A DNA stretch of 64,000 bases, from NCBI RefSeq assembly GCF_038502225.1, contig NC_091391.1:3949214-4013213 (forward strand), read 5' to 3'. Shown here one piece after another: positions 5,286-63,518 of this stretch. The notes under the pieces are model-generated. The model had not been told where the DNA came from. It was given only the letters and a program-made list of their open reading frames with translations, and ran no database searches. The translations under genes and the position numbers were made by a program. Position 1 is the stretch's first letter. Every line of letters starts with the position of its first letter. The stretch comes from Cherax quadricarinatus. Lineage: Eukaryota > Arthropoda > Malacostraca > Decapoda > Parastacidae.

Positions 5286-5322
5286 TGGCAACGTTTCGCT
5301 CTCCAGGAGCTTTATCAAGCCA
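5286..5322 (-). ncRNA. Hammerhead-type ribozyme motif, U3-A8 family
   Basis: Minus-strand reading: stem I UGGC, core UUGAUAA, an extra A, stem II GCUC/GAGC, then GAA, ACGU, U and stem I partner GCCA. AATAAA follows closely. Core positions 3 and 8 are U and A instead of C and G. It is the mirror of the motif at 5326-5362. Confidence 0.7.
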
Positions 5323-5325
5323 TTA

Positions 5326-5362
5326 TGGCTTGATAAAGCTCCTGGAGAGCGAAACGTTGCCA
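5326..5362 (+). ncRNA. Hammerhead-type ribozyme motif, U3-A8 family
   Basis: Stem I UGGC (5326-5329), core UUGAUAA (5330-5336), stem II GCUC/GAGC, then GAA-ACGU-U and GCCA (5359-5362). Predicted cleavage is after 5358. It is the right arm of the palindrome. Confidence 0.7.
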
Positions 5363-5823
5363 CAATAAATGTCACATTAGTTGCACTTGTGTCCTTTTAC
5401 TTTACATATTGTCGGTAATTCTACCAACTTTATTACAAGCCGTATACAAAGCTTCTGGAGAGCGAAACGTTTCCACAAAATGTCACATTAGTGGCATCTG
5501 TGTTCGTTAACCTATTAACGTAAGATGCCTGGGAGAACAGTTTTCTCTGAAAACGTTCAGGGTTATTGTAAATACCAGTGACGACGCCCGTGGCAGTTGT
5601 AACACAGACCTCAACAGCAAAACAAACTAAATCTGACGTCACCAAGGATCCCAATGTATTCTTGGGCACGACCTACTTCCACATTGAACAAATGTGACAC
5701 CGCCTATGACTGCTACACCTCTCCTACCAACGGTTTATAAGCTGCTTCTCCGCACGTATGCCGTATTCTATTCAAGATTGATGGACTGACCACATCGACT
5801 CAAGGTTGAGGGACTGATTACCT

Positions 5824-6045
5824 GGAAATATAAACACAAATGCAGTATAATGTGATCCTTTATTGACTACGTTTCGCCCACACAGTGGGCTTTTTCAAGT
5901 CACAAACAGAACTACCTGGGGTGGAAGGAACGCGAGTATTTATAGTCCGGTTCAGAATGCTGAGGTCAGGTGAAGAATGCTGCATCTGATGATGTACCGA
6001 GTGGGGTTATAGAGTCTAAAAACTTGGGTAGCTTGGAAAGGAGAT
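5824..6045 (-). mobile_element. Nested pLTR insertion, GAC family
   Basis: The left end, GGAAATATAAACAC, is shared with the independent insert at 7316. The right end differs, as expected if the RNA 3' end is fixed and the 5' end is truncated during target-primed reverse transcription. A 9-bp target duplication bounds it. One minus-strand ribozyme motif lies inside. Confidence 0.75.
5865..5901 (-). ncRNA. Hammerhead-type ribozyme motif, GAC family
   Basis: Minus strand: stem I GAC, core UUGAAAA, extra A, stem II GCCCAC/GUGGGC, then GAA-ACGU-A and GUC. AATAAA begins inside the base of stem I. Core 3-8 is U-A and position 7 is A. Confidence 0.7.
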
Positions 6046-6090
6046 TGATTACCTCATTCTCCTCCTGTTCTTCAAGATTCTCCTTTGTGT

Positions 6091-6125
6091 GGACTGATGA
6101 AGCCACTGTGTGGCGAAACGTTTCC
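6091..6125 (+). ncRNA. Hammerhead-type ribozyme motif, GGA family
   Basis: Stem I GGA (6091-6093), canonical core CUGAUGA, extra A, stem II GCCAC/GUGGC with loop UGU, then GAA-ACGU-U and UCC (6123-6125). The poly(A)-type signal AATAAA follows after two bases. This is the most canonical of the families. Confidence 0.75.
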
Positions 6126-6273
6126 TCAATAAAGATACCCAAGAGTTGCACATGTGTCTAATTTATCAATCAAGGATCCCAATGGAAATAGGTCACTCTG
6201 ACTTGTTTTTAGGGTTATCCTAAGTAATTAACACTAGTAAAATTGTACGTGTGTACCCGGAAATAAATAAATT

Positions 6274-6482
6274 TACCGTATTTTCCGGCATATAAGGCGC
6301 ACGACAAGTATCATAACGGTAAATCAGTAATTATATATAAGGGTTAATTACCCTCTTACTTTACGCTAAAGCCTAACCCAAAGCCTAACCTTGACTCTAA
6401 CCTTGATCATATAAGGCGCAGGATGATTTCAAAGACTTTTTGTGGGAAAAAAAAGGCGTCTTATATTCCTGAAAACACGGTA
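6274..6482. mobile_element. MITE with TACCGT ends, 209 bp
   Basis: Imperfect terminal inverted repeats of about 27 bp start TACCGTATTTTCCGG at the left and match the reverse complement of the right end with about five differences. TA lies at both outer borders (6274-6275, 6481-6482). No coding potential. Just left of it, at about 6175-6265, is a SINE-tail-like fragment (CAATGGAAATAGG). Confidence 0.75.
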
Positions 6483-6725
6483 CTTGATATTCAGGGAGAT
6501 GTTCTTATTAAATAGAAACCCTGGAGACTAAAGTCTTCAAGGAAGGTTACTCTTTAAGCTTGCCCGAAATGTTTTGCATAAACATGGACTTCCTGCATGC
6601 ACAAGCAACATAACATAAGAATGGAGGAACATTGCAGAAGGTCTACTGGTTGAACATTAAAATGGTATAAAATACCGACAGGTTGTTAGGTAAGACACAT
6701 ATGCAACAGTTAGGTATCTTTATTA

Positions 6726-6762
6726 TGAAACGTTTCGCCTACACAGTAGGCTTCTTCAGTCA
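6726..6762 (-). ncRNA. Hammerhead-type ribozyme motif, UGA family
   Basis: Minus strand: UGA, core CUGAAGA (C3-G8 kept, position 7 is A), stem II GCCUAC/GUAGGC, then GAA-ACGU-U and UCA. The UGA/UCA stem I replaces the GGA/UCC of other copies. Confidence 0.72.
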
Positions 6763-6855
6763 AGTACAGAAAAGTTGATAGAAGCAGAAGATAAGGGTGA
6801 TGGACTGATTACATCGTCTTCAAGTATCTTCTGCTTCTATCAACTTTTCTGTACT

Positions 6856-6892
6856 TGACTGAAGAAGCCTACTGTGTAGGCGAAACGTTTCA
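6856..6892 (+). ncRNA. Hammerhead-type ribozyme motif, UGA family
   Basis: Right arm of the foldback, the exact mirror of the motif at 6726-6762. UGA is at 6856-6858 and UCA at 6890-6892, followed by AATAAA. Confidence 0.72.
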
Positions 6893-7315
6893 TAATAAAG
6901 ATACCTAACTGTTGCATATGTGTCTTACCTAACAAGGTCTACTGGTCCATACAAGGCAGGTCCTTATCAAGACCACCTCTACCCAAACTACCCAAGAATT
7001 TACTCCCGTACCCACGACACCAATCACGCCATCTCCTCCCACTCATATATTTGTCCACTCTCTTTAATCTTTAATCCGTTATGTCTTGGTTCTTACCTGA
7101 TTCGATACATGGATGTAACCTGAATGCCTCACTTCCACCAGTCGCTGTATGACCCATACGAGTTTAGCACTTCCCCACGAATGTAATCTAATTTGAGGCA
7201 AAGATCTCTTCTGAAGGCCAAATAGAATTCTTCGAAGCATATCCCAGGAACGGGAAAGTTTTCTGGAGAATGGAAAATGAAGCGAGATGCAAGTTTGTGC
7301 TGGTAACTGGAAGAT

Positions 7316-7444
7316 GGAAATATAAACACATATGCAGTATAATGTGATCCTTTATTGACTACGTTTCGCCCACACAGTGGGCTTTTTCAAGTCACAAACA
7401 GAACTACCTGGGGTGGAAGGAACGCGAGTATTTATAGTATTTAT
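7316..7444 (-). mobile_element. Short pLTR insertion, GAC family
   Basis: A 129-bp insert bounded by the 12-bp duplication TAACTGGAAGAT (7304-7315 and 7445-7456). It starts with the same GGAAATATAAACAC end as the insert at 5824 and has a shorter 5' end. It contains one ribozyme motif and no coding sequence. Confidence 0.8.
7357..7393 (-). ncRNA. Hammerhead-type ribozyme motif, GAC family
   Basis: Same as the motif at 5865-5901: GAC / UUGAAAA / stem II GCCCAC-GUGGGC / GAA-ACGU-A / GUC on the minus strand. Confidence 0.7.
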
Positions 7445-7498
7445 AACTGGAAGATGAAGATTGAAACGCTTATGCAACATATGGGAATCTTTATTCAG

Positions 7499-7533
7499 GA
7501 GACGTTTCGCCACACAGTGGCTTCATCAGTCCA
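7499..7533 (-). ncRNA. Hammerhead-type ribozyme motif, GGA family
   Basis: Minus strand: GGA, CUGAUGA, stem II GCCAC/GUGGC, GAA-ACGU, cleavage nucleotide C, UCC. The cleavage nucleotide is C rather than U, which hammerheads allow. Confidence 0.72.
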
Positions 7534-7596
7534 ATACAAAGAGGAAAGTTTTCCAAACCATTCATCACAACTAGAAGATTCTGATATGTCTGAGAA

Positions 7597-7718
7597 GGAG
7601 GAGGAGTACTACAATTACTACTACTACCACAAGTACTATAATTACTACTACTACTACCACAAGTACTACAACTACTACTACAAGTACTACAACAACTACC
7701 ACTACCACAAATATTACT
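7597..7718. repeat. Imperfect TAC/TAT trinucleotide tract
   Basis: Runs of TAC, CAC and TAT triplets lie inside the inverted half of the pLTR. Low complexity, not coding. Confidence 0.8.
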
Positions 7719-7762
7719 GATGAATGGTTTGAAAAACCGACATGTTGAAGATTGAGACACTT

Positions 7763-7791
7763 ATGAAGCCACTGTGTGGCGAAACGTTTCC
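7763..7791 (+). ncRNA. Truncated hammerhead motif
   Basis: Begins at AUGA of the core; the 5' stem I strand and CUG are missing. Leader sequence GAGACACTT is joined directly to it, possibly through a shared ATG. Stem II, GAA-ACGU-U and UCC are intact. It should not self-cleave. Confidence 0.65.
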
Positions 7792-7940
7792 TGAATAAAG
7801 ATTCCTATATGCTGCATAAGTGTCTCAATCTTCAACTTGTCGGTTTTTCAAACCATTCATCACAACTGTCAGACACTGCAGCATCATGGGATCTTGTTAC
7901 AAAGAATTCTTCAACACTTGTTCAACCTTTGGACGAAGAC

Positions 7941-8672
7941 CTACTTCGACTAGTGGATGGTACCACTATGACCCCGCCTCCTCCTGCTTCACGTCACCTG
8001 ACTACTTCGACTAGTGGATGGTACCACTATGACCCCGCCTCCGCCTGCTTCACCTCACCTGACTACTTCGACTAGTGGATGGTACCACTATGACCCCGCC
8101 TCCGCCTGCTTCACCTCACCTCACTACTTCGACTAGTGGATGGTACCACTATGACCCCGCCTCCTCCTGCTTCACCTCACCTCACTACTTCGACTAGTGG
8201 ATGGTACCACTATGACCCCGCCTCCTCCTGCTTCACCTCACCTCACTACTTCGACTAGTGGATGGTACCACTATGACCCCGCCTCCTCCTGCTTCACCTC
8301 ACCTCACTACTTCGACTAGTGGATGGTACCACTATGACCCCGCCTCCTCCTGCTTCACCTCACCTCACTACTTCGACTAGTGGATGGTACCACTATGACC
8401 CCGCCTCCTCCTGCTTCACCTCACCTCACTACTTCGACTAGTGGATGGTACCACTATGACCCCGCCTCCGCCTGCTTCACCTCACCTCACTACTTCGACT
8501 AGTGGATGGTACCACTATGACCCCGCCTCCTCCTGCTTCACCTCACCTCACTACTTCGACTAGTGGATGGTACCACTATGACCCCGCCTCCTCCTGCTTC
8601 ACCTCACCTCACTACTTCGACTAGTGGATGATACCACTATGACCCCGCCTCCACCTGCTTCACGTCACCTCA
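7941..8672. repeat. 61-bp minisatellite, 12 copies, inside a pLTR monomer
   Basis: The unit starts CTACTTCGACTAGTGG. Twelve copies span exactly 732 bp. The parental single copy, flanked by CTAC at 8990 and 9051 (61 bp apart), is present in the next monomer. Confidence 0.95.
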
Positions 8673-8678
8673 CTACAG

Positions 8679-8805: not shown

Positions 8806-8840
8806 GGACTGATGAAGCCACTGTGTGGCGAAACGTTTCC
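8806..8840 (+). ncRNA. Hammerhead-type ribozyme motif, GGA family
   Basis: GGA at 8806-8808, CUGAUGA, extra A, GCCAC/GUGGC, GAA-ACGU-U, UCC at 8838-8840. Predicted cleavage is after 8837. AATAAA at 8843-8848. Confidence 0.75.
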
Positions 8841-9183: not shown

Positions 9184-9218
9184 GGACTGATGAAGCCACT
9201 GTGTGGCGAAACGTTTCC
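9184..9218 (+). ncRNA. Hammerhead-type ribozyme motif, GGA family
   Basis: Same sequence as the motif at 8806-8840. Predicted cleavage is after 9215. It closes the 378-nt monomer. Confidence 0.75.
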
Positions 9219-9265: not shown

Positions 9266-9451
9266 ATATTACTACTACCCACAACAATTAAACTTCGCAC
9301 CTCACTCCTTACCTACACGTACCCTGAGCCCATGTATTGTTCATAACTGTTTGAAAATTCTTCTGGAGAGCGAAACGTTGCACATAATGTCGCGTTAGTT
9401 AGCTGTACTTGTGTCCTTTTATCTAACATGTAAGAATGACTGTAAGGGCAG
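9266..9451 (+). mobile_element. Decayed pLTR fragment (UGGC family)
   Basis: GGAGAGCGAAACGTTGC at about 9364 matches the 3' half of the UGGC-family ribozyme, followed by the family's terminal GTGTCCTTTTATCT sequence. The 5' half is not recognisable. Confidence 0.5.
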
Positions 9452-9812: not shown

Positions 9813-9925
9813 TCACTGTGAGGACCGCTGTGAAGACAGGTGTAAGAGTCGATGGAAATAAATGGTATAAAATACCGACACAATGGAAATATAAACACAT
9901 ATGCAGTATAATGTGACCCTTTATT

Positions 9926-9962
9926 GACTACGTTTCGCCCACACAGTGGGCTTTTTCAAATC
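9926..9962 (-). ncRNA. Hammerhead-type ribozyme motif, GAC family variant
   Basis: Minus strand: GAU pairs with GUC through a U-G wobble. Core UUGAAAA, stem II GCCCAC/GUGGGC, GAA-ACGU-A. Confidence 0.65.
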
Positions 9963-10178
9963 ACAAACAGATCTACCTGGGGTGGAAGGGACGCGAGTAT
10001 TTATAGTCAGGTTCAGAATGTTGAGGTCAGGTGGAGGATGCTGCATCTGATAATCTACCGATGTACTCTATAACCCCACCCGGTAGATCATCAGATGCAG
10101 CATTCTCCACCTGACCTCAACATTCTGAACCTGACTATAAATACTCCCGTACCTTCCACTCCAGGTAGATCTGTGTGT

Positions 10179-10215
10179 GACTTGAAAAACCCCACTGTGT
10201 GGGCGAAACGTTGTC
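10179..10215 (+). ncRNA. Hammerhead-type ribozyme motif, GAC family variant
   Basis: GAC, UUGAAAA, GAA-ACGU-U, GUC. The closing pair of stem II is C-C instead of G-C, so activity is doubtful. Confidence 0.6.
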
Positions 10216-13200
10216 AATAAAGGATCACATTATACTGCATATGTGTTTATATTTCCAGGTGTAAGAGTCACTGTAAAGACTACTGTGAAGACAGGTGTAA
10301 GAGTCACTGTGAAGACTGCTGTGAAGACAGGTGTAAGAGTCACTGTGAAGACTGCTGTGAAGGCAGGTGTAAGAGCCACTGTGAAGACTACTGTGAAGGC
10401 AGGTGTAAGAGTGTGAGAACTACTGTGAAGGCAGGTGTAAGAGTGTGAGGACTACTGTGAAGGCAGGTGTAAGAGCCACTGCGAAGACTGCTGTGAAGGC
10501 AGGTGTAAGAGTGTGAGGACTACTGTGAAGGCAGGTGTAAGAGCCACTGCGAAGACTGCTGTGAAGGCAGGTGAAAGTGTGAGGACTACTGTGAAGGCAG
10601 GTGTAAGAGTGTGAGGACTACTGTGAAGGCAGGTGTAAGAGCCACTGCGAAGACTGCTGTGAAGGCAGGTGTAAGAGCCACTGTGAAGACTACTGTGAAG
10701 GCAGGTGTAAGTGTGAGGACTACTGTGAAGGCAGGTGTAAGAGTGTGAGGACTACTGTGAAGGCAGGTGTAAGAGTGACTGTGAGGACTACTGTGAAGGC
10801 AGGTGTAAGAGTGAGTGTGAGGACTACTGTGAAGGCAGGTGTAAGAGTGACTGTGAGGACTGCTGTGAAGGCAGGTGTAAGAGTGAGTGTGAGGACTACT
10901 GTGAAGGCAGGTGTAAGAGTGACTGTGAGGACTACTGTGAAGGCAGGTGTAAGAGTGACTGTGAGGACTACTATGAAGGCAGGTTTAAGAGTGAGTGTAA
11001 GGACTACTGTGAAGGCAGATGTAAGAGTGAGTGTGAGGACTGCTGTGAAGGCAGGTGTAAGAGTGAGTGTGAGGACTACTGTGAAGGCAGGTGTAAGAGT
11101 GACTGTGAGGACTACTGTGAAGGCAGGTGTAAGAGTGAGTGTGAGGACTACTGTGAAGGCAGGTGTAAGAGTGACTGTGAGAACTGCTGTGAAGGCAGGT
11201 GTAAGAGTGAGTGTGAGGACTACTGTGAAGGCAGGTGTAAGAGTGACTGTGATGACTGCTGTGAAGGCAGGTGTAAGAGTGACTGTGAGGACTACTGTGA
11301 TGGCAGGTGTACGAGTGAGTGTGAGGACTACTGTGAAGGCAGGTGTAAGAGTGACTGTGAGGACTACTGTGAAGGCAGGTGTAAGAGTGAGTGTGAGGAC
11401 TACTGTGAAGGCAGGTGTAAGAGTGACTGTGAGGACTACTGTGAAGGCAGGTGTAAGAGTGACTGTGAGGACTACTGTGAAGGCAGGTTTAAAAGTGAGT
11501 GTGAGCACTACTGTGAAGGCAGGTGTAAGAGTGACTGTGAGGACTACTGTGAAGGCAGGTGTAAGAGTGAGTGTGAGGACTACTGTGAAGGCAGGTGTAA
11601 GAGTGACTGTGAGGACTACTGTGAAGGCAGGTGTAAGAGTGTGAGGACTACTGTGAAGGCAGGTGTAAGAGTGAGTGTGAGGACTACTGTGAAGGCAGGT
11701 GTAAGAGTGACTGTGAGGACTACTGTGAAGGCAGGTGTAAGAGTGACTGTGAGGACTACTGTGAAGGCAGGTGTAAGAGTGACTGTGAGGACTGCTGTGA
11801 AGGCAGGTGTAAGAGTGAGTGTGAGGACTACTGTGAAGGCAGGTGTAAGAGTGACTGTGAGGACTACTGTGAAGGCAGGTGTAAGAGTGAGTGTGAGGAC
11901 TACTGTGAAGGCAGGTGTAAGAGTGACTGTGAGGACTACTGTGAAGGCAGGTGTAAGAGTGAGTGTGAGGACTACTGTGAAGGCAGGTGTAAGAGTGACT
12001 GTGAGGACTACTGTGAAGGCAGGTGTAAGAGTGTGAGGACTACTGTGAAGGCAGGTGTAAGAGTGAGTGTGAGGACTACTGTGAAGGCAGGTGTAAGAGT
12101 GTGAGGACTACTGTGAAGGCAGGTGTAAGAGTGAGTGTGAGGACTACTGTGAAGGCAGGTGTAAGAGTGACTGTGAGGACTACTGTGAAGGCAGGTGTAA
12201 GAGTGACTGTGAGGACTACTGTGAAGGCAGGTGTAAGAGTGAGTGTGAGGACTACTGTGAAGGCAGGTGTAAGAGTGACTGAGGACTACTGTGAAGGCAG
12301 GTGTAAGAGTGACTGTGAGGACTACTGTGAAGGCAGGTGTAAGAGTGACTGTGAGGACTACTGTGAAGGCAGGTGTAAGAGTGTGAGGACTACTGTGAAG
12401 GCAGGTGTAAGAGTGACTGTGAGGACTACTGTGAAGGCAGGTGTAAGAGTGTGAGGACTACTGTGAAGGCAGGTGTAAGAGTGACTGTGAGGACTACTGT
12501 GAAGGCAGGTGTAAGAGTGAGTATGAGGACTACTGTGAAGGCAGGTGTAAGAGTGACTGTGAGGACTACTGTGAAGGCAGGTGTAAGAGTGACTGTGAGG
12601 ACTACTGTGAAGGCAGGTGTAAGAGTGAGTGTGAGGACTACTGTGAAGGCAGGTGTAAGAGTGACTGTGAGGACTACTGTGAAGGCAGGTGTAAGAGTGA
12701 CTGTGAGGACTACTGTGAAGGCAGGTGTAAGAGTGTGAGGACTACTGTGAAGGCAGGTGTAAGAGTGACTGTGAGGACTACTGTGAAGGCAGGTGTAAGA
12801 GTGTGAGGACTACTGTGAAGGCAGGTGTAAGAGTGAGTGTGAGGACTACTGTGAAGGCAGGTGTAAGAGTGACTGTGAGGACTACTGTGAAGGCAGGTGT
12901 AAGAGTGAGTGTGAGGACTACTGTGAAGGCAGGTGTAAGAGTGACTGTGAGGACTACTGTGAAGGCAGGTGTAAGAGTGAGTGTGAGGACTACTGTGAAG
13001 GCAGGTGTAAGAGTGACTGTGAGGACTACTGTGAAGGCAGGTGTAAGAGTGACTGTGAGGACTACTGTGAAGGTAGGTGTAAGAGTGTGAGGACTACTGT
13101 GAAGGCAGGTGTAAGAGTGAGTGTGAGGACTACTGTGAAGGCAGGTGTAAGAGTGACTGTGAGGACTACTGTGAAGGCAGGTGTAAGAGTGACTGTGAGG

Positions 13201-15413: not shown

Positions 15414-15422
15414 AGTTGTGTA

Positions 15423-28577: not shown

Positions 28578-28699
28578 TCTGAACCGGTATTCCTACGAGT
28601 TAAAAGTGGTGTTAGTGATGCACTGATGATTTTCAGGGTTCTTTATCGTCAAGAACTGCAAGAGGAGTCCACTAAATCATCAATTCACCACGCACTTAC

Positions 28700-30204
28700 A
28701 CCACCACTTTAAACCAAGTCATCATCTTTCCCAACAGCAAAGTTGCCTTGAATGTCTCCCAAGTACTTGCACAAACCAACGCTAGATTCGACATTGCAAC
28801 CAGCACATGCATGAAAGACCTGACAAGGACCAAAGTGAAGAACTTTGAACTGGTCAACGCAGGTGTTTACACAATCCCTTGCGGAGGCTGTAACAAGGTG
28901 TACGTCGGTGAAACGTACCTTATAAACACGTCTTGGTCAAGGCATCAGTACATGCAGAACGATGAGTGAACTCATCACTGTATGCAAAAACAAGTGAACA
29001 CATCAGTGCATGCAGAAACCACAAGTGAACACATCAATGCATGCAGGAACCACAAGTGAACACATCAGTGCATGCAGAAACCATAAGTGAACACAATGCA
29101 TGCAGAAACCACAAGTGAACACATCAGTGCATGCAGAAACCACAAGTGAACACAATGCATGCAGAAACCAAAAGTGAACACATCAGTGCATGCAGAAACC
29201 ACAAGTGAACACAATGCTTGCAGAAACCACAAGTGAACACATCAGTGCATGCAGAAAACACAAGTGAACACAATGCATGCAGAAACCACAAGTGAACACA
29301 TCAGTGCATGCAGAAACCACAAGTGAACACATCAGTGCATGCAGAAACCAAAAGTGAACACATCAGTGCATGCAGAAACCAAAAGTGAACACATCAGTGC
29401 ATGCAGAAACCACAAGTGAACACATCAATGCATGCAGAAACCACAAGTGAACACATCAATGCATTCAGAAACCACAAGTGAACTCATCAGTGCATGCAGA
29501 AACCACAAGTGAACACAATGCATGCAGAAACCACAAGTGAACACATCACTGCATGCAGAAACCACAAGTGAACACATCACTGCATGCAGAAAGCACAAGT
29601 GAACACATCACTGCATGCAGAAAACACAAGTGAACACAATGCATGCAGAAACCACAAGTGAACACATCAGTGCATGCAGAAACCACAAGTGAACACATCA
29701 ATGCATTTAGAAACCACAAATGAACACATTGCATGCAGAAACCACAAGTGAACACATCACTGCATCCAGAAACCACAAGTGAACACAATGCATGCAGAAA
29801 CCACAAGTGAACACATCACTGCATCCAGAAACCACAAATGAACACATTGCATGCAGAAACCACAAGTGAACACATTGCATGCAGAAACCACAAGTGAACA
29901 CATTGCATGCAGAAACCACAAGTGAACACATTGCATGCAGAAACCACAAGTGAACACATCAGTGCATGCAGAAACCACAAATGAACACATTGCATGCAGA
30001 AACCACAAGTGAACACATTGCATGCAGAAACCACAACTTGAACATGTGTACAGAACGGGAACTCCAACAACACATTCAGTAACGTCTTCCTAGAGATCAA
30101 GGAAGCGAATTTCCTCAGACGTAAATGAATTGAATCATCATTAATCATTATTTCTGAGGTATTACAACGAATTGTAATCAAAACATTGAACCCCTCAATC
30201 ATAT
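28700..30204 (+). pseudogene. Penelope-like element ORF, GIY-YIG C-terminal part, broken
   Basis: The frame around 28748-28950 reads ...NAGVYTIPCGGCNKVYVGET, the GIY-YIG endonuclease signature with the cysteine-containing loop typical of Penelope-like retroelements (GVYxIPCxxCxKVYxGET). The endonuclease nicks the target for reverse transcription. The conserved arginine helix is only partly recognisable (SWSRHQYMQNDE). At that point a 31/28-bp tandem array replaces the sequence until about 30035. After it the ORF resumes with FLEIKEANFLRRK, an in-frame TGA (30126-30128), then IESSLIIIS and NPSII ending at the stop 30202-30204. This matches the RRK..ESSLI C-terminal block expected after GIY-YIG. 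No RT domain is visible upstream, where the 33-bp array lies. Domain identity is from motif recognition. Confidence 0.75.
28942..30035. repeat. 31/28-bp minisatellite born in the GIY-YIG frame
   Basis: The unit contains CATGCAGAAACCACAAGTGA followed by ACACATCAGTG (31 bp) or ACACAATG (28 bp). The first unit is the element's own coding sequence (CATCAGTACATGCAGAACGA). Confidence 0.92.
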
Positions 30205-32303: not shown

Positions 32304-32582
32304 AAGATAAGATAAGATAAGATTTCGTTCGGATTTTTAACCCCGGAGGGTTAGCCACCCAGGATAACCCAAGAAAGTCAGTGAGTCATCGAGGACTGTC
32401 TAACTTATTTCCATTGGGGTCCTTAATCTTGTCCCCCAGGATGCGACCCACACCAGTCGACTAACACCCAGGTGAACAGGACAACAGGTGTAAGGAAACG
32501 TGTCAAATGTTTCCACCCGCCGGGAATCGAACCCGGGCCCTCCGTGTGTGAAGCGGGAGCTTTAGCCACCAGGCCACCGGGC
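32304..32582 (-). mobile_element. tRNA-derived SINE, copy 2
   Basis: Reverse orientation. The (AAGAT)n tail is at 32304-32324 and the tRNA-like head with B box GGTTCGATTCC is at about 32523-32533. Body sequence matches copy 1 except for a deletion between two AGGT repeats that removes most of the 57-bp parent segment. CAC again sits in the anticodon-like position. Confidence 0.9.
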
Positions 32583-32930: not shown

Positions 32931-33408
32931 TTGTTCCAGATAGTGGAGGTCTTATTATTCACTGTTTGTTCCACATAGTGGAGGTCTTATTATTCACTGT
33001 TTGTTCCACATAGTGGAGGTCTTATTATTCACTGTTTGTTCCACATAGTGGAGGTCTTATTATCCACTGTTTGTTCCACATAGTGGAGGTCTTATTATCC
33101 ACTGTTTGTTCCACATAGTGGAGGTCTTATTATCCACTGTTTGTTCCAGATAGTGGAGGTCTTATTATCCACTGTTTGTTCCACGTAGTGAAGGTCTTAT
33201 TATCCACTGTTTGTTCCACATAGTGGAGGTCTTATTATCCACTGTTTGTTCCACATAGTGGAGGTCTTATTATCCACTGTTTGTTCCACATAGTGGAGGT
33301 CTTATTATCCACTGTTTGTTCCACATAGTGGAGGTCTTATTATTCACTGTTTGTTCCACATAGTGGAGGTCTTATTATTCACTGTTTGTTCCACATAGTG
33401 GAGGTCTT
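32931..33408. repeat. 35-bp minisatellite, about 14 copies
   Basis: The unit contains GTTCCACATAGTGGAGGTCT and TATTATCCACTGTTT. It passes without a break into the 34-bp array, which is a modified form of the same unit. Confidence 0.93.
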
Positions 33409-36400
33409 TATTCCCCACAGTGTTCCACACAGTGGAGATCTTTATTCCCCACAGTGTTCCACACAGTGGAGATCTTTATTACCCACAGTGTCCCACACAG
33501 TGGAGATCTTTATTCCCCACAGTGTTCCACACAGTGGAGATCTTTATTACCCACAGTGTTCCACACAGTGGAGATCTTTACTCCCCACAGTGTTCCACAC
33601 AGTGGAGATCTTTATTACCCACAGTGTTCCACACAGTGGAGATCTTTATTACCCACAGTGTTCCACACAGTGGAGATCTTTACTCCCCACAGTGTTCCAC
33701 ACAGTGGAGATCTTTATTACCCACAGTGTTCCACACAGTGGAGATCTTAATTACCCACAGTGTTCCACACAGTGGAGATCTTAATTACCCACAGTGTTCC
33801 ACACAGTGGAGATCTTAATTACCCACAGTGTTCCACACAGTGGAGATCTTAATTACCTACAGTGTTCCACACAGTGGAGATCTTAATTACCCACAGTGTT
33901 CCACACAGTGGAGATCTTAATTACCTACAGTGTTCCACACAGTGGAGATCTTAATTACCCACAGTGTTCCACACAGTGGAGATCTTAATTACCCACAGTG
34001 TTCCACACAGTGGAGATCTTAATTACCCACAGTGTTCCACACAGTGGAGATCTTTATTACCCACAGTGTCCCACACAGTGGAGATCTTTATTACCCACAG
34101 TGTTCCACACAGTGGAGATCTTTATTCCCCACAGTGTTCCACACAGTGGAGATCTTTATTCCCCACAGTGTTCCACACAGTGGAGATCTTAATTACCCAC
34201 AGTGTTCCACACAGTGGAGATCTTTATTCCCCACAGTGTCCCACACAGTGGAGATCTTTATTACCCACAGTGTCCCACACAGTGGAGATCTTTATTACCC
34301 ACAGTGTTCCACACAGTGGAGATCTTTATTCCCCACAGTGTTCCACACAGTGGAGATCTTTATTACCCACAGTGTTCCACACAGTGGAGATCTTAATTAC
34401 CCACAGTGTTCCACACAGTGGAGATCTTTATTACCCACAGTGTCCCACACAGTGGAGATCTTTATTACCCACAGTGTTCCACACAGTGGAGATCTTTATT
34501 CCCCACAGTGTTCCACACAGTGGAGATCTTTATTCCCCACAGTGTCCCACACAGTGGAGATCTTTATTACCCACAGTGTTCCACACAGTGGAGATCTTAA
34601 TTACCCACAGTGTTCCACACAGTGGAGATCTTTATTCCCCACAGTGTTCCACACAGTGGAGATCTTTATTCCCCACAGTGTTCCACACAGTGGAGATCTT
34701 TATTCCCCACAGTGTTCCACACAGTGGAGATCTTAATTACCCACAGTGTTCCACACAGTGGAGATCTTTATTACCCACAGTGTTCCACACAGTGGAGATC
34801 TTAATTACCCACAGTGTTCCACACAGTGGAGATCTTTATTACCCACAGTGTTCCACACAGTGGAGATCTTAATTACCCACAGTGTTCCACACAGTGGAGA
34901 TCTTTATTCCCCACAGTGTTCCACACAGTGGAGATCTTTATTCCCCACAGTGTTCCACACAGTGGAGATCTTTATTCCCCACAGTGTTCCACACAGTGGA
35001 GATCTTTATTCCCCACAGTGTTCCACACAGTGGAGATCTTTATTCCCCACAGTGTTCCACACAGTGGAGATCTTAATTACCCACAGTGTTCCACACAGTG
35101 GAGATCTTTATTACCCACAGTGTTCCACACAGTGGAGATCTTAATTACCCACAGTGTTCCACACAGTGGAGATCTTTATTACCCACAGTGTTCCACACAG
35201 TGGAGATCTTTATTACCCACAGTGTTCCACACAGTGGAGATCTTTATTCCCCACAGTGTTCCACACAGTGGAGATCTTTATTCCCCACAGTGTTCCACAC
35301 AGTGGAGATCTTTATTACCCACAGTGTTCCACACAGTGGAGATCTTTATTACCCACAGTGTCCCACACAGTGGAGATCTTTATTACCCACAGTGTCCCAC
35401 ACAGTGGAGATCTTTATTACCCACAGTGTCCCACACAGTGGAGATCTTTATTCCCCACAGTGTTCCACACAGTGGAGATCTTTATTACCCACAGTGTCCC
35501 ACACAGTGGAGATCTTTATTACCCACAGTGTTCCACACAGTGGAGATCTTAATTACCCACAGTGTTCCACACAGTGGAGATCTTTATTATCCACAGTGTT
35601 CCACACAGTGGAGATCTTTATTACCCACAGTGTCCCACACAGTGGAGATCTTTATTACCCACAGTGTCCCACACAGTGGAGATCTTTATTACCCACAGTG
35701 TTCCACACAGTGGAGATCTTTATTCCCCACAGTGTTCCACACAGTGGAGATCTTTATTACCCACAGTGTTCCACACAGTGGAGATCTTAATTACCCACAG
35801 TGTCCCACACAGTGGAGATCTTTATTACCCACAGTGTCCCACACAGTGGAGATCTTTATTCCCCACAGTGTTCCACACAGTGGAGATCTTTATTACCCAC
35901 AGTGTTCCACACAGTGGAGATCTTTATTACCCACAGTGTTCCACACAGTGGAGATCTTTATTACCCACAGTGTCCCACACAGTGGAGATCTTTATTACCC
36001 ACAGTGTTCCACACAGTGGAGATCTTAATTACCCACAGTGTTCCACACAGTGGAGATCTTTATTACCCACAGTGTCCCACACAGTGGAGATCTTTATTAC
36101 CCACAGTGTCCCACACAGTGGAGATCTTTATTCCCCACAGTGTTCCAAACAGTGGAGATCTTTATTACCCACAGTGTTCCACACAGTGGAGATCTTTATT
36201 ACCCACAGTGTTCCACACAGTGGAGATCTTTATTACCCACAGTGTTCCACACAGTGGAGATCTTAATTACCCACAGTGTCCCACACAGTGGAGATCTTTA
36301 TTACCCACAGTGTTCCACACAGTGGAGATCTTTATTACCCACAGTGTTCCACACAGTGGAGATCTTAATTACCCACAGTGTCCCACACAGTGGAGATCTT

Positions 36401-38417
36401 AATTACCCACAGTGTTCCACACAGTGGAGATCTTTATTACCCACAGTGTTCCACACAGTGGAGATCTTAATTACCCACAGTGTCCCACACAGTGGAGATC
36501 TTAATTACCCACAGTGTTCCACACAGTGGAGATCTTAATTACCCACAGTGTCCCACACAGTGGAGATCTTTATTACCCACAGTGTTCCACACAGTGGAGA
36601 TCTTAATTACCCACAGTGTTCCACACAGTGGAGATCTTAATTACCCACAGTGTTCCACACAGTGGAGATCTTAATTACCCACAGTGTTCCACACAGTGGA
36701 GATCTTTATTACCCACAGTGTTCCACACAGTGGAGATCTTAATTACCCACAGTGTTCCACACAGTGGAGATCTTAATTACCCACAGTGTTCCACACAGTG
36801 GAGATCTTAATTACCCACAGTGTTCCACACAGTGGAGATCTTAATTACCCACAGTGTTCCACACAGTGGAGATCTTTATTACCCACAGTGTTCCACACAG
36901 TGGAGATCTTTATTACCCACAGTGTTCCACACAGTGGAGATCTTAATTACCCACAGTGTTCCACACAGTGGAGATCTTAATTACCCACAGTGTTCCACAC
37001 AGTGGAGATCTTAATTACCCACAGTGTTCCACACAGTGGAGATCTTTATTACCCACAGTGTTCCACACAGTGGAGATCTTTATTACCCACAGTGTTCCAC
37101 ACAGTGGAGATCTTTATTACCCACAGTGTTCCACACAGTGGAGATCTTAATTACCCACAGTGTTCCACACAGTGGAGATCTTTATTACCCACAGTGTTCC
37201 AAACAGTGGAGATCTTAATTACCCACAGTGTTCCACACAGTGGAGATCTTAATTACCCACAGTGTCCCACACAGTGGAGATCTTAATTACCCACAGTGTT
37301 CCACACAGTGGAGATCTTAATTACCCACAGTGTTCCACACAGTGGAGATCTTAATTACCCACAGTGTTCCACACAGTGGAGATCTTAATTACCCACAGTG
37401 TTCCACACAGTGGAGATCTTTATTACCCACAGTGTTCCAAACAGTGGAGATCTTTATTCCCCACAGTGTTCCACACAGTGGAGATCTTTATTACCCACAG
37501 TGTCCCACACAGTGGAGATCTTAATTACCCACAGTGTTCCACACAGTGGAGATCTTTATTACCCACAGTGTCCCACACAGTGGAGATCTTTATTACCCAC
37601 AGTGTTCCACACAGTGGAGATCTTAATTACCCACAGTGTCCCACACAGTGGAGATCTTAATTACCCACAGTGTTACACACAGTGGAGATCTTTATTACCC
37701 ACAGTGTCCCACACAGTGGAGATCTTAATTACCAACAGTGTTCCACACAGTGGAGATCTTAATTACCCACAGTGTCCCACACAGTGGAGATCTTAATTAC
37801 CCACAGTGTTCCACACAGTGGAGATCTTAATTACCCACAGTGTCCCACACAGTGGAGATCTTAATTACCCACAGTGTCCCACACAGTGGAGATCTTAATT
37901 ACCCACAGTGTTCCACACAGTGGAGATCTTAATTACCCACAGTGTTCCACACAGTGGAGATCTTAATTACCCACAGTGTTCCACACAGTGGAGATCTTAA
38001 TTACCCACAGTGTCCCACACAGTGGAGATCTTAATTACCCACAGTGTCCCACACAGTGGAGATCTTAATTACCCACAGTGTCCCACACAGTGGAGATCTT
38101 AATTACCCACAGTGTCCCACACAGTGGAGATCTTAATTACCCACAGTGTTCCACACAGTGGAGATCTTAATTACCCACAGTGTTCCACACAGTGGAGATC
38201 TTAATTACCCACAGTGTCCCACACAGTGGAGATCTTAATTACCCACAGTGTCCCACACAGTGGAGATCTTAATTACCCACAGTGTCCCACACAGTGGAGA
38301 TCTTAATTACCCACAGTGTCCCACACAGTGGAGATCTTAATTACCCACAGTGTCCCACACAGTGGAGATCTTAATTACCCACAGTGTCCCACACAGTGGA
38401 GATCTTAATTACCCACA
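33409..38417. repeat. 34-bp minisatellite, about 147 copies
   Basis: The unit contains TTCCACACAGTGGAGATCTT and AATTACCCACAGTG. TTTATT and TTAATT versions alternate in the first two thirds; from about 36480 the TTAATT version dominates and TCCC replaces TTCC increasingly. Each unit holds the hairpin CCAC-ACA-GTGG. Short open frames of 64-404 aa are repeat translations. Confidence 0.96.
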
Positions 38418-38659
38418 TGTCCCCACACTGGCTTTACCACTAATTTGGTAAAGCGTCTGTGTGTGACCAGAGTTGTGAGTAATAACCTCAGTGGGAGAGC
38501 AACTTAGATAACAGGTGTTCCAAACAGTGGTGAATAAAACACTTGTGCAACACTTGGGTATATTGTAGAAACGTGTCTCCAACAAGCGAGTTCATCAGTC
38601 CTTTTCCAGAGAGTAAACTCTAGATGTGAAGATGTAATTTGAGGTGATCAGTCCCCTCA
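38418..38659 (-). mobile_element. Decayed pLTR fragment
   Basis: Minus strand near 38604-38560 reads GGACTGATGAACTCGC, then GGAG, ACACGTTTC: a GGA-family-like ribozyme with GAAA changed to ACA. The terminal sequence ACTTGTGCAACACTTGGGTA follows. Confidence 0.5.
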
Positions 38660-57210: not shown

Positions 57211-59330
57211 GATACCTGCATTTCTTAAATGTTTCAAAGCAGCTGAGGGCGCACATTTTTCAGGTGGAGCTTTAATCTGATTCATATACCCAGAAAAATG
57301 AACTATTTCTTCAACAAATGTGTCCTGAACATCTGCTGAAAGGTGTTGTTGCAACTTTAATGCAGCTTCTCTCAATTCTGCATCTGGCACAGTAGTAATT
57401 TTGAACAGAAATCCAAACTTGTCATTGAGATTCTGCTAGATTTCTTTTCTTTTCACCAATTCTGTAATCAGTGAATCCAGAATGACGAAGTATGTAGCTG
57501 TCTTACATTTCTGCCTTGGTAGCAACACAATTTCATTGTCTGGGTCTTCAAAATTGCGTTTCCTCTTCCTTGACCGCTGATGATCAGCCCGGTAACTGTA
57601 GTCTTTCACCAGCAGTTTAGCTTTCTCTTCAAACATTTCAAAAGCTTCATCATTGCGAAGTGAGCTTACAAATTCCACTAAGCCTGCATAGAGGTTAGCA
57701 CAAGTAGGCATTTCAATTTCAATTTTCTGAAGTGTCTTGTTCGTGGCATTTAACCGTTCCAGTATACAGTCCCAAAGCACACAGAGTAAGGCCAATTCTA
57801 AATCTTCCAATTTTGATGCTAAGTTGGCTGCTTCGCTTCTTGTAGTTGCTGTCTGGTCTTCATCCTCTGCTATTTGGATCAAAGCAGAACGTATTTCAGC
57901 AAAGCTGTCTTTCAAAGCATGTGTTGCATCATGCTGCGCTGACCACCTTCTTGTTGATAATTATTTGATGACATCTCCATGAATGGTTGACTTGAGTATA
58001 CTCCACCGATGCGTTGAAGCAGAGAAAAAATTAAAGAGTGCTTGTAAAAGTCCAAAAAATGAAACTGCAGCGACACAACACTCCGCAGCACATGACCCAA
58101 CAAGATTAAGAGAATGTGCTGAGCAGGGCACATATTCAGCAAGTGGGTTGATTTGCTTGATACGGGCTTGCAATCCATTATATTTACCCGACATGTTACT
58201 TGCATTGTCGTAGCTCTGGCCCCGGCAATCCATAATAGAGAGATCAAGTTCAAGCAGAGTATCCAGTACTACATTCATCATTGTTTCTCCATCATGGCCT
58301 GAAAGAGGAATGAATTTTATAAAGCGCTCTACAGGCTTACCACTGGAGTCGACAAAGCGAACAATGAATGTCAATTGATCTGTATGTGAAATATCTGGTG
58401 TTGAATCTACACTTATTGCAAAGTATTTAGCAGTTTTCACAGCTGCTATGATGTTATTGAGGACCTTCTTAGTCATCAGTTCAATAAATTCATTGCATAT
58501 AGTAGATGACATGTAAGATACAGTGCCTCTTCCTGCATTCCCAAGGCGTGACACATGATTTGCTAAGAATGGATCGAATTGTGCTAACAGTTCTATGATC
58601 CCTAGGAAACTGCCATTGTTTTCCGAACCAAAAACCTCATTTTCTCCACGGAAAGCAAGTCCTCTTAGAGCTAAGAATTTTACAACAGCAACAACTTTCT
58701 AGAACTTTTCTCCAATAAGTGCGCTCTTTTTCCGTTTGATTTTCCAAATGAGAATCCAATAAGCCTTTTTTCTGTGCACGAAATACACTGGCTAAAATGC
58801 AGCTCCTGTGAGTGGTGCTGTTTTCATGTTCCTCGAAACGCTTGGAATTTTTCCAGTCATTAAACCCCTGTGTGAAGGTATTTTCTTTGGTAGAAAATAG
58901 CTTGCATGCTGAACAGTACACTTTTCCTGAGCTTTCAGAGTATACCATCCATGATCTTTTCACAGTTTCTGAATTTGCAAGCTTCCTATAAAACATAGAT
59001 GACTTTAAACAACGACGACTTCCATCGTCATAAATCCTTGCTGATTTCCTAAAGTCAATGTTCAGAGTTTGACTGAAGTTTTCTGCAATGAAAGCATTAC
59101 GTAGAGAATCTGGGATTACATTTGGCCATGAGGCAGGATCTTTTAAGACAAATCCTGTGGATGAAATGTCCGTTGAGACATAGAGAGGAGACAGAAAAGA
59201 AGTAGACGCTGGCTGAGAAATAATGGAGGGAGGGTTTCCTGTATGATCTGACGTGTTGATAAATTAGACACATGTGCAACTCTTGGGTGATAAATTAGAC
59301 ACATATGCAACTCTTGGGTATCTTTATTGA

Positions 59331-59365
59331 GGAAACGTTTCGCCACACAGTGGCTTCATCAGTCC
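59331..59365 (-). ncRNA. Hammerhead-type ribozyme motif, GGA family
   Basis: Minus strand: GGA, CUGAUGA, extra A, GCCAC/GUGGC, GAA-ACGU-U, UCC, then AATAAA after two bases. Same sequence as the motif at 6091-6125, 53 kb away. Confidence 0.75.
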
Positions 59366-59796: not shown

Positions 59797-59831
59797 GGAC
59801 TGATGAAGCCACTGTGTGGCGAAACGTTTCC
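59797..59831 (+). ncRNA. Hammerhead-type ribozyme motif, GGA family
   Basis: GGA 59797-59799, CUGAUGA 59800-59806, GCCAC/GUGGC, GAA-ACGU-U, UCC 59829-59831. The downstream signal is AATAAT rather than AATAAA. Confidence 0.74.
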
Positions 59832-60149
59832 TCAATAATGATACCCAAGAGTTGCACATGTGTCTAATTTATCAACATGTCGGTTCTCTGAACCATTCAT
59901 CTACAAATGATCTGACGTATCTGCAGATTCAACTGTACTGGTAACATCAGAAACTGTTTTCGTGAGCATGTCTGTGATCTTTCTGCAGCTTCCTACATCT
60001 TTCTTCTTCTGTTCTTCTTCTTAAATTTTCTTCTTTCTTTTCTGTGACCCACTCGCATAAGAACGTCCAACATCACGTTCACGAGATGCCATAATGAGGA
60101 TGTACCACTGTCTGTAATCATGCAAATACAAACTTTTCAATATCGATTA

Positions 60150-60240
60150 TCATTAATTGTTTAATTATTATTAATTTTTTAATTATTATTATTTTTTTAA
60201 TTATTATTAATTTTTTAATTATTATTATTTTTTTTTGTCA
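60150..60240. repeat. AT-rich low-complexity tract (TTAATTATT)
   Basis: Alternating TTAATTATTATT and T-runs between the transposase start and the 32-bp array. Any promoter of the transposase would lie upstream of 60092, in or beyond this tract; none is identifiable. Confidence 0.85.
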
Positions 60241-60252
60241 ATTGGGGGGATA

Positions 60253-63200
60253 TCAGCTGTTCTGATGTAAACAAAGGCGTGAACACAGCTGTTCTGATGT
60301 AAACAAAGGCGTGAACACAGCTGTTCTGATGTAAACAAAGGCGTGAACACAGCTGTTCTGATGTAAACAAAGGCGTGAACACAGCTGTTCTGATGTAAAC
60401 GAAGGCGTGAACACAGCTGTTCTGATGTAAACAAAGGCGTGAACACAGCTGTTCTGATGTAAACAAAGGCGCGAACACAGCTGTTCTGATGTAAACAAAG
60501 GCGTGAACACAGCTGTTCTGATGTAAACAAAGGCGTGAACACAGCTGTTCTGATGTAAACAAAGGCGTGAACACAGCTGTTCTGATGTAAACAAAGGCGT
60601 GAACACAGCTGTTCTGATGTAAACAAAGGCGTGAACACAGCTGTTCTGATGTAAACAAAGGCGTGAACACAGCTGTTCTGATGTAAACAAAGGCGTGAAC
60701 ACAGCTGTTCTGATGTAAACAAAGGCGTGAACACAGCTGTTCTGATGTAAACAAAGGCGTGAACACAGCTGTTCTGATGTAAACAAAGGCGTGAACACAG
60801 CTGTTCCGATGTAAACAAAGGCGTGAACACAGCTGTTCTGATGTAAACAAAGGCGTGAACACAGCTGTTCTGATGTAAACAAAGGCGTGAACACAGCTGT
60901 TCTGATGTAAACAAAGGCGTGAACACAGCTGTTCTGATGTAAACAAAGGCGTGAACACAGCTGTTCTGATGTAAACAAAGGCGTGAACACAGCTGTTCTG
61001 ATGTAAACAAAGGCGTGAACACAGCTGTTCTGATGTAAACAAAGGCGTGAACACAGCTGTTCTGATGTAAACAAAGGCGTGAACACAGCTGTTCTGATGT
61101 AAACAAAGGCGTGAACACAGCTGTTCTGATGTAAACAAAGGCGTGAACACAGCTGTTCTGATGTAAACAAAGGCGTGAACACAGCTGTTCTGATGTAAAC
61201 AAAGGCGTGAACACAGCTGTTCTGATGTAAACAAAGGCGTGAACACAGCTGTTCTGATGTAAACAAAGGCGTGAACACAGCTGTTCTGATGTAAACAAAG
61301 GCGTGAACACAGCTGTTCTGATGTAAACAAAGGCGTGAACACAGCTGTTCTGATGTAAACAAAGGCGCGAACACAGCTGTTCTGATGTAAACAAAGGCGT
61401 GAACACAGCTGTTCTGATGTAAACAAAGGCGTGAACACAGCTGTTCTGATGTAAACAAAGGCGTGAACACAGCTGTTCTGATGTAAACAAAGGCGTGAAC
61501 ACAGCTGTTCTGATGTAAACAAAGGCGTGAACACAGCTGTTCTGATGTAAACAAAGGCGTGAACACAGCTGTTCTGATGTAAACAAAGGCGTGAACACAG
61601 CTGTTCCGATGTAAACAAAGGCGTGAACACAGCTGTTCTGATGTAAACAAAGGCGTGAACACAGCTGTTCCGATGTAAACAAAGGCGTGAACACAGCTGT
61701 TCTGATGTAAACAAAGGCGTGAACACAGCTGTTCTGATGTAAACAAAGGCGTGAACACAGCTGTTCTGATGTAAACAAAGGCGTGAACACAGCTGTTCTG
61801 ATGTAAACAAAGGCGTGAACACAGCTGTTCTGATGTAAACAAAGGCGTGAACACAGCTGTTCTGATGTAAACGAAGGCGTGAACACAGCTGTTCTGATGT
61901 AAACGAAGGCGTGAACACAGCTGTTCTGATGTAAACGAAGGCGTGAACACAGCTGTTCTGATGTAAACGAAGGCGTGAACACAGCTGTTCTGATGTAAAC
62001 GAAGGCGTGAACACAGCTGTTCTGATGTAAACGAAGGCGTGAACACAGCTGTTCTGATGTAAACGAAGGCGTGAACACAGCTGTTCTGATGTAAACGAAG
62101 GCCTGAACACAGCTGTTCTGATGTAAACGAAGGCGTGAACACAGCTGTTCTGATGTAAACGAAGGCGTGAACACAGCTGTTCTGAAGTAAACGAAGGCGT
62201 GAACACAGCTGTTCTGATGTAAACAAAGGCGTGAACACAGCTGTTCTGATGTAAACGAAGGCGTGAACACAGCTGTTCTGATGTAAACAAAGGCGTGAAC
62301 ACAGCTGTTCTGATGTAAACAAAGGCGTGAACACAGCTGTTCTGATGTAAACAAAGGCGTGAACACAGCTGTTCTGATGTAAACAAAGACGTGAACACAG
62401 CTGTTCTGATGTAAACAAAGGCGTGAACACAGCTGTTCTGATGTAAACAAAGGCGTGAACACAGCTGTTCTGATGTAAACAAAGGCGTGAACACAGCTGT
62501 TCTGATGTAAACAAAGGCGTGAACACAGCTGTTCTGATGTAAACAAAGGCGTGAACACAGCTGTTCTGATGTAAACAAAGGCGTGAACACAGCTGTTCTG
62601 ATGTAAACAAAGGCGTGAACACAGCTGTTCTGATGTAAACGAAGGCGTGAACACAGCTGTTCTGATGTAAACAAAGGCGTGAACACAGCTGTTCTGATGT
62701 AAACGAAGGCGTGAACACAGCTGTTCTGATGTAAACAAAGGCGTGAACACAGCTGTTCTGATGTAAACAAAGGCGTGAACACAGCTGTTCTGATGTAAAC
62801 AAAGGCGTGAACACAGCTGTTCTGATGTAAACAAAGGCGTGAACACAGCTGTTCTGATGTAAACAAAGGCGTGAACACAGCTGTTCTGATGTAAACAAAG
62901 GCGTGAACACAGCTGTTCTGATGTAAACAAAGGCGTGAACACAGCTGTTCTGATGTAAACAAAGGCGTGAACACAGCTGTTCTGATGTAAACAAAGGCGT
63001 GAACACAGCTGTTCTGATGTAAACAAAGGCGTGAACACAGCTGTTCTGATGTAAACAAAGGCGTGAACACAGCTGTTCTGATGTAAACAAAGGCGTGAAC
63101 ACAGCTGTCCTGATGTAAACAAAGGCGTGAACACAGCTGTTCTGATGTAAACAAAGGCGTGAACACAGCTGTTCTGATGTAAACAAAGGCGTGAAGACAG

Positions 63201-63289
63201 CTGTTCTGATGTAACCAAAGGCGTGAACACAGCTGTTCTGATGTAAACAAAGGCGTGAACACAGCTGTTCTGATGTAAACAAAGGCGTG
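60253..63289. repeat. 32-bp satellite inside the hAT element, about 95 copies
   Basis: The unit contains ACAGCTGTTCTGATGTAAAC and AAAGGCGTGAAC. A run of about ten consecutive copies (61.87-62.21 kb) carries AAACG instead of AAACA, with single copies nearby. It is open in all three minus frames for over 1000 aa with one shared 32-residue peptide repeat; not a gene. Confidence 0.97.
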
Positions 63290-63450
63290 TTGAGTGTTGC
63301 CATCTATGGTTCGGTTTATTTATTTTTATTTTATTTTATTTCATTGTTTATTTTTGTTTTGATTAATTTTTAAAAATCAATTTTACTCTCCTCCATTCTT
63401 ATGTTCTTATGACATTCCTCAGGTCACGTGCGTCACACCTCACTCTCCGC

Positions 63451-63460
63451 CTATATATAA
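63451..63460 (+). promoter_or_regulatory. TATA-like box of the AGAA-family pLTR
   Basis: TATATATAAT, about 32 bp upstream of the ribozyme motif, in the position expected from the other pLTRs. Confidence 0.3.
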
Positions 63461-63482
63461 TGTCTTTCTACCTCTGTATGTT

Positions 63483-63518
63483 AGAAGTGATCAAGGTCCC
63501 AGGACCGAAACGTTTTCT
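63483..63518 (+). ncRNA. Hammerhead-type ribozyme motif, G3-C8 family
   Basis: Stem I AGAA (63483-63486), core GUGAUCA (63487-63493), extra A, stem II GGUC/GACC, GAA-ACGU-U, stem I partner UUCU (63515-63518), then AATAAA. The core 3-8 pair is reversed to G-C. Confidence 0.68.

Follow-up and report, generated by a model that had tools for sequence, protein, structure and literature searches.

What are the short hammerhead-like motifs that an initial annotation picked out of a 64,000-nucleotide (nt) stretch of the Cherax quadricarinatus genome (NC_091391.1, positions 3,949,214 to 4,013,213; the whole stretch is referred to here as the window), and which elements carry them? They are probably minimal hammerhead ribozymes of a type acting as dimers, placed within the pseudo-long terminal repeats (pseudo-LTRs) of several lineages of Penelope-like elements (PLEs) and within related short elements. 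The window was scanned with a strict descriptor, which left core positions 3, 7 and 8 free and required UGA at positions 4-6, A9, 0 or 1 inserted nt, a stem II of at least 3 bp, GAA, a self-complementary A..U tetranucleotide, a stem I of at least 3 bp, and a base other than G at H17. Fourteen motifs were obtained, versus 0 in each of 20 dinucleotide shuffles; a second descriptor with a stem II of at least 4 bp again returned 14 in the window and 0 in the reversed sequence. The annotated count of fifteen was accurate within one copy, because the 14 strict motifs are accompanied by two copies with a damaged stem II, and the five annotated cores and three states of the 3-8 pair (C-G, U-A and G-C) were all recovered. 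In the list that follows the feature ends were set from the stems, and each row matched the strict descriptor unless marked as degenerate.

5286..5322, minus strand: hammerhead motif, core TTGATAA (U3-A8), stem II GCTCCTGGAGAGC
5326..5362, plus strand: hammerhead motif, core TTGATAA (U3-A8), head to head with the motif at 5286..5322
5864..5902, minus strand: hammerhead motif, core TTGAAAA (U3-A8), stem II GCCCACTGTGTGGGC
6091..6125, plus strand: hammerhead motif, core CTGATGA (C3-G8), stem II GCCACTGTGTGGC
6726..6762, minus strand: hammerhead motif, core CTGAAGA (C3-G8), stem II GCCTACTGTGTAGGC
6856..6892, plus strand: hammerhead motif, core CTGAAGA (C3-G8), head to head with the motif at 6726..6762
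7356..7394, minus strand: hammerhead motif, core TTGAAAA (U3-A8)
7498..7532, minus strand: hammerhead motif, core CTGATGA (C3-G8), H17 = C
8806..8840, plus strand: hammerhead motif, core CTGATGA (C3-G8), first member of a tandem pair with 378 bp spacing
9184..9218, plus strand: hammerhead motif, core CTGATGA (C3-G8), second member of the tandem pair
9347..9384, plus strand: degenerate copy, core TTGAAAA, stem II damaged (9351); regular expression only, fails the strict descriptor
9925..9963, minus strand: hammerhead motif, core TTGAAAA (U3-A8)
10178..10216, plus strand: degenerate copy, core TTGAAAA, first pair of stem II lost (10182); regular expression only, fails the strict descriptor
59331..59365, minus strand: hammerhead motif, core CTGATGA (C3-G8)
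59797..59831, plus strand: hammerhead motif, core CTGATGA (C3-G8)
63479..63522, plus strand: hammerhead motif, core GTGATCA (G3-C8), stem II GGTCCCAGGACC, stem I of 8 bp, followed by AATAAA

Regular-expression matches at 3145(-), 3139(-), 32472(+), 57263(-), 42299(-), 21135(-) and 17682(-) were rejected, as their stems failed the strict descriptor. The 14 strict motifs all carried U4, G5, A6 and A9, G12, A13 and A14, together with stems I and II; their cores were CTGATGA (6), TTGAAAA (3), CTGAAGA (2), TTGATAA (2) and GTGATCA (1). The 3-8 pair, which is known from crystal structures and laboratory double mutants, was Watson-Crick in 14 of 14 (C-G in 8, U-A in 5, G-C in 1). GAA was followed by ACGT in every one of them, i.e., a loop-less ACGU stands where stem III belongs, and the third stem of a hammerhead is formable only by a dimer. 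This lowers the standing of the motifs as canonical monomeric hammerheads, and does not count against a hammerhead-like mode of working; because ACGU can pair with itself, a transcript with two copies could form one common stem III of 4 bp and work as a double hammerhead. An Rfam scan of the window at the gathering threshold gave 0 matches of any family, and hammerhead families numbered 0 among the 104 matches up to E = 5; this class of copies escapes the Rfam hammerhead models.

The association of positions 3 and 8 was assessed across the genome to which the window belongs (3,952,656,770 bases in 7,334 contigs). The pattern TGANNAAG-N11-CGAAACGTT, with positions 3, 7 and 8 free, matched 45,265 + 45,289 = 90,554 times, and the same pattern written backwards 2 + 1 = 3 times. 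Classes U3-A8, U3-other, G3-C8, G3-other and A3-U8 were then counted genome-wide with a gap of 6-16 nt and the reversed pattern as control. There were 33,204 + 33,200 = 66,404 matches to U3-A8 (control 12) versus 4,722 with U3 and a non-A base at 8 (control 23), 8,763 to G3-C8 (control 9) versus 1,439 with G3 and a non-C base at 8 (control 51), and only 76 to A3-U8 (control 7). Thus 93% of U3 copies have A8 and 86% of G3 copies have C8, which are paired to unpaired proportions of about 14 to 1 and 6 to 1, respectively; a few large families account for these shares, so that independent exchanges cannot be counted from copy number. Among U3 and G3 copies, positions 3 and 8 are strongly associated genome-wide, in agreement with what had been noted within the window. 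For 20 copies fetched with 3 and 8 free in the pattern the pair was C-G in 10, U-A in 7 and unpaired in 3; this figure of 17 paired out of 20 is a fairer tally than that from the 17 chosen representatives described below. The invariable pairing annotated for the window held there but not outside it, where unpaired copies exist and some are recurrent. Family tallies were made by eye within the listed G3-C8, G3-other, U3-other and A3-U8 places, and by this measure the non-pairing classes consisted largely of isolated point mutants of abundant families. The GGTCCC family includes TTGATCA copies, which were rejected as a U3-C8 family; they often overlap as inverted pairs and were read as head-to-head junctions. 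At C1:26533805-26533850, and in similar pairs, two motifs of the GGTCCC family are fused head to head via the palindrome TTGATCAA, and junctions of this type may bear the trace of how inverted copies arise.

The structure was tested on 17 aligned representatives with different stems, which were chosen by us with several mispaired rows omitted. Every pair tested (10 of 10) changed on both sides; 91.2% of cells were paired versus 65.1% in shuffles, and the covariation score over all pairs was 0.731 versus 0.239 when shuffled and at most 0.163 for a slid alignment. The states of pair 3-8 in these rows were C-G 7, U-A 5, G-C 2, U-G 1 and G-G 2; this pair was formed in 88.2% of rows versus 58.1% in shuffles (1 of 500 shuffles as high), and its covariation was 0.985 versus 0.325 (reached by 0 of 500; slid alignments, 0 to 0.309), although two of five measures for this pair were not above the shuffles (reached by 401 and 210 of 500). 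Stems I and II thus covary among the chosen representatives as the annotated hammerhead architecture requires. The omitted rows with a mispaired 3-8 were L005(-) A-A, L101 C-A, L104 G-A, L105(+) U-U, L115 and L116 G-G, L124 U-C, and L126 G-A, and those with a U-G wobble were L118, L119, L120, L121 and L122; L098, L103 and L109(+) were left out as decayed or odd, and others, e.g., L093, L094, L096, L097, L100, L106 and L107, as further copies of represented families. Leaving out mispaired rows favours the reading of a selected ribozyme; L115 to L126 are no neutral sample either, because they were picked from listings of the non-pairing classes. Since the rows are related as well as selected, the test shows consistency and not a probability. 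A GTGATCA copy in locus L109 with stem II GCCCACTATGCGGGC formed one of the 17 rows and has an inverted neighbour that reads TTGATAA; it was not counted as a second G3-C8 lineage.

Two other features of the core were followed outside the window. Position 7, annotated as U or A, was so in the window, but elsewhere is also G (TTGAGAA) and C (TTGACAA). The extra A, annotated as constant and unexplained, separated A9 from stem II in all 14 motifs of the window and in all 17 from loci picked by their endonuclease; but in 200 kb of genome taken at fixed places irrespective of the motif, the six descriptor matches had an inserted A in 4 and C in 1, and the sixth, with insert AA, stem III AAAU and core GTGAATA, looks like chance. 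Nor is the insertion without precedent, since the plus-strand hammerhead of chrysanthemum chlorotic mottle viroid (CChMVd) has an extra A (A10) between A9 and G10.1 (PMC3705267). There the A is tolerated with a moderately lowered trans-cleaving rate, and at position 10 a C or G is harmful while U is faster (PMC3705267).

The motifs lie in terminal repeats of PLEs, which the initial annotation had named as known carriers of minimal hammerheads. A genome search for GIY-YIG endonucleases gave 14,992 candidates, of which 150 were scored and all 150 were over the cut-off; many of these loci are inverted neighbours a few kb apart. Locus L066 has inverted open frames of 787 and 793 codons, and on its plus strand the 793-codon frame (3473-5851) lies between TTGAAAA motifs at 3448 and 6037, to which an inverted partner is added; these are the hammerhead-bearing terminal repeats, in tandem or inverted copies, of PLEs. 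The frame contains RVT_1 (2.5e-10) and GIY-YIG (6.9e-08) domains, and four frames from L066, L068 and L071 each had both above cut-off, i.e., the reverse transcriptase (RT) with C-terminal GIY-YIG that characterizes PLEs. Of 7,996 candidates scored in a protein search, 709 were relatives, and the named ones among the 120 listed were from crustaceans (Cherax, Penaeus, Portunus, Oratosquilla). In viral contigs, considered as a source of relatives, the protein scan found none, the alignment scan found 19 loci with RT parts only, and none of the 37 stretches from a pattern scan had both stems of at least 3 bp. The GTGATCA motif of L111 follows an RT/endonuclease that is 58.7% identical to that of L066 over 484 amino acids (aa), and the TTGATAA motif of L113 follows one 63% identical over 584 aa; the TTGATAA and GTGATCA lineages have RT/endonuclease sequences of their own, 55-63% identical. 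The aligned parts of both are free of stops. The L111 match spans residues 311-791 only and L113 is broken further upstream, so we infer the autonomy of GTGATCA and TTGATAA elements from their family. In L071 the CTGAAGA copies enclose a frame with 98% identity to the L066 frame. In the window itself a 106-aa match (38% identity) to a Penelope-like protein was seen at 28676-28987 (+), just after a satellite array and with no strict motif nearby.

The position of the motif within the DNA was compared for 40 distinct copies (from the window, L046-L073 and L108-L114) with ACGT, a stem II of at least 4 bp and a stem I of at least 3 bp. In 36 of the 40, the start of AATAAA lies 3-5 nt beyond the predicted cleavage site. 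A TATA box was present within 75 nt upstream of 20 of the 40, either 33-37 or 45-47 nt ahead of position 3, and all TATA-bearing copies had TTGAAAA, TTGAGAA, TTGATAA or GTGATCA cores (20 of the 26 such copies). Promoters of the usual geometry place the start of transcription close to where stem I lies, and transcription of these elements would be predicted to begin there. With the motif between TATA box and AATAAA, a full-length RNA should carry it near both ends.

How might such an arrangement work? The families retain U4, G5, A6, A9, G12, A13 and A14, with the loop-less ACGU replacing stem-loop III, and keep 3-8 mostly Watson-Crick while its identity varies by lineage among C-G, U-A and G-C; a 3-8 identity exchanged as a pair between lineages is the trace that would be expected from selection upon a working ribozyme. 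In the U-A and G-C lineages, where the motif stands 33-47 nt after the TATA box and, as in nearly all copies measured, AATAAA lies 3-5 nt past the predicted site, the motif would be close to both ends of the full-length RNA, a position comparable to that of the R region in LTR elements. Cleavage of both copies would remove the cap leader and the poly(A) end together, leaving an RNA of unit length whose 5'-OH and cyclic-phosphate ends a ligase could join. From L066 cleavage at both motifs would free a unit of about 2.6 kb, and small units would be freed from the 378-bp CTGATGA and 421-bp tandems. We tentatively propose, as a less secure step than the identification of the motifs, that whole Penelope-like lineages run on a native U-A or G-C 3-8 hammerhead with an inserted A after A9, that the ribozyme is the terminal redundancy of the RNA between TATA box and poly(A) signal, and that a single dimer reaction removes cap and tail and makes a closable unit-length genome.

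For the short tandem units another origin is possible, though somewhat doubtful, and it is compatible with the explanation given for the remaining copies: these units could be retrozyme-like non-autonomous elements which spread via small circular RNA, instead of remnants of PLE terminal repeats. CTGATGA copies stand in tandem 378 bp apart at 8809/9187 (+), and 372-378 bp apart in the tandems that include C1:579644-580043 and C1:4100374-4101157; units with GCCACTGGATGGC are spaced by about 421 bp at C1:4624656-4625919. The 372-378-bp spacing matches retrozyme units in size, and metazoan repeats with type I hammerheads measure 150-450 bp (PMC7229834); however, the tandem units lack stem III just as the PLE motifs do, carry AATAAA, and have downstream sequence in common with the other families. 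A minisatellite of 61 bp (12 copies, 7941-8676) has a sequence that is part of the 378-bp hammerhead unit, and it apparently grew inside one copy of that unit.

Several observations weigh against a selected, dimer-acting ribozyme in PLEs, beyond the choice of rows and the two unexceptional measures of the structure test. By eye, all but two of the listed G3-C8 places have a GGTCCCAGGACC-type stem II, i.e., are one family, so perhaps no more than two independent 3-8 exchanges took place. There is a recurrent GTGAAGA family with stem II GCCACTCGTGGC and G3 opposite G8, of which the L117 copy has stem I and AATAAA intact despite the G-G, and GTGATGA is a second non-pairing (G-G) family. No TATA box was present within 75 nt of any of the 14 CTGATGA and CTGAAGA copies, and no RT frame for these C-G families was found in the fetched loci, a genome-wide search for one not having been made. 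Cofolding of two copies of each of seven motifs gave minimum-energy dimers without a double hammerhead; this was set aside, and lends no support either, because energy models do not see the core. Finally, the hammerhead of an Anolis PLE was cleaved only with the element's protein, its cleavage was unnecessary for insertion in vitro, and no RNA-sequencing read began or ended at its site (PMC11167929).

An alternative is that the motifs are inert descendants of hammerheads, amplified from a few master copies, with U3-A8 having arisen by two common transitions (C to U and G to A) without selection for pairing and the 3-8 pairing being coincidental. The few lineages per 3-8 state with listed G3-C8 places nearly of one family, the existence of non-pairing families, the common C-to-U changes of abundant families, and the insertion of the Anolis element in vitro without cleavage (PMC11167929) all agree with this. 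We nevertheless consider it unlikely, since ten of ten pairs tested change on both sides across the representatives, the core U4 G5 A6 A9 and GAA are common to lineages whose RT/endonucleases differ by 37-45%, G3-C8 would need two changes outside the C-to-U or G-to-A kind whether it came from C-G or U-A, and paired copies outnumber unpaired ones by the proportions given above. That the hairpin and its flanks serve as a protein-binding or reverse-transcription signal, or as part of the promoter or poly(A) signal, with the core kept for that and not for cleavage, is very unlikely: the placement between TATA box and AATAAA and the protein-dependent, dispensable cleavage in Anolis (PMC11167929) would fit, but a binding hairpin predicts neither the exchange of stem I pairs across the core, nor the 3-8 pairing, nor the invariant GAA-ACGU of the rows compared (where ACGU was partly required by the search patterns).

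How much of this is new? The overall interpretation in the initial annotation stood as regards hammerhead architecture, 3-8 association and Penelope-like carriers; its suggestion that swapped 3-8 pairs may be new did not hold for U3-A8, natural examples of which were reported in 2011 (PMC3088659), and is uncertain for G3-C8. That report describes the same core-pair exchange in several scattered examples versus the 66,404 copies in this genome, and the extra A of CChMVd is the same as here, though in a viroid and with helix III (PMC3705267); neither U3-A8 nor the extra A is therefore new in kind. PLE hammerheads have been described as minimal type I motifs, role unknown (PMC7761336, PMC6155905); likewise, they reside in pseudo-LTRs without a proper helix III, in several copies per element, and dimer cleavage has been proposed. 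What appears to set the present families apart from those so described is the U-A or G-C 3-8 pair in RT/endonuclease lineages and the inserted A. In the Anolis Poseidon element PAc the motif likewise lies just upstream of the RT/GIY-YIG frame, and the importance of C3-G8 was shown by exchange: single mutants C3G and G8C abolished cleavage and the double mutant partly restored it (PMC11167929). PAc has the canonical C3-G8, its G3-C8 being laboratory-made, whereas here G3-C8 is native in 8,763 copies. In metazoan retrozymes, too, every tandem unit spans a few hundred bp and bears a hammerhead, but one of canonical type I that has helix III as well as tertiary contacts (PMC7229834). Among 198 sequences of a cricket satellite, C3 was mutated in four and G8 in two (PMC2837043). 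No report of a native G3-C8 hammerhead was found in the literature searched, outside which lay Lunse 2017, Cervera & de la Pena 2014, and Przybilski & Hammann 2007. Native G3-C8 at high copy number and the tight TATA-hammerhead-AATAAA arrangement both look new, with some uncertainty in each case.

The exchange at 3-8 seems to have occurred naturally in several lineages and to have been multiplied into tens of thousands of copies; with these native families, cores with C-G, U-A and G-C can be compared directly in a setting that is minimal and dimeric. The role of the hammerhead in PLEs has been called "still a mystery" (PMC7761336); if the TATA-AATAAA layout reflects real RNA ends, it offers a testable answer.

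Satellite arrays extend over much of the window (3727-63289), e.g., at 32932-38431 (34 bp, 161 copies) and 60254-63289 (32 bp, 95 copies), and microRNA-like Rfam matches, all below the gathering score, fell largely within satellites and inverted repeats. Transfer RNA (tRNA)-like matches just under the Rfam gathering score at 3034-3105 (+) and 32514-32582 (-) adjoin GTGAACA...GAAACGT look-alikes, and the two together are possibly a tRNA-derived short element. RT fragments were present at 1386-3065 (-), with RVT_1 (1.1e-09) and zf-RVT below cut-off. Overlapping open frames at 57436-59263 (-) contain DUF4371 (2.8e-18) and a zinc-finger match below cut-off, an arrangement which we take to be that of hAT-like DNA transposons.

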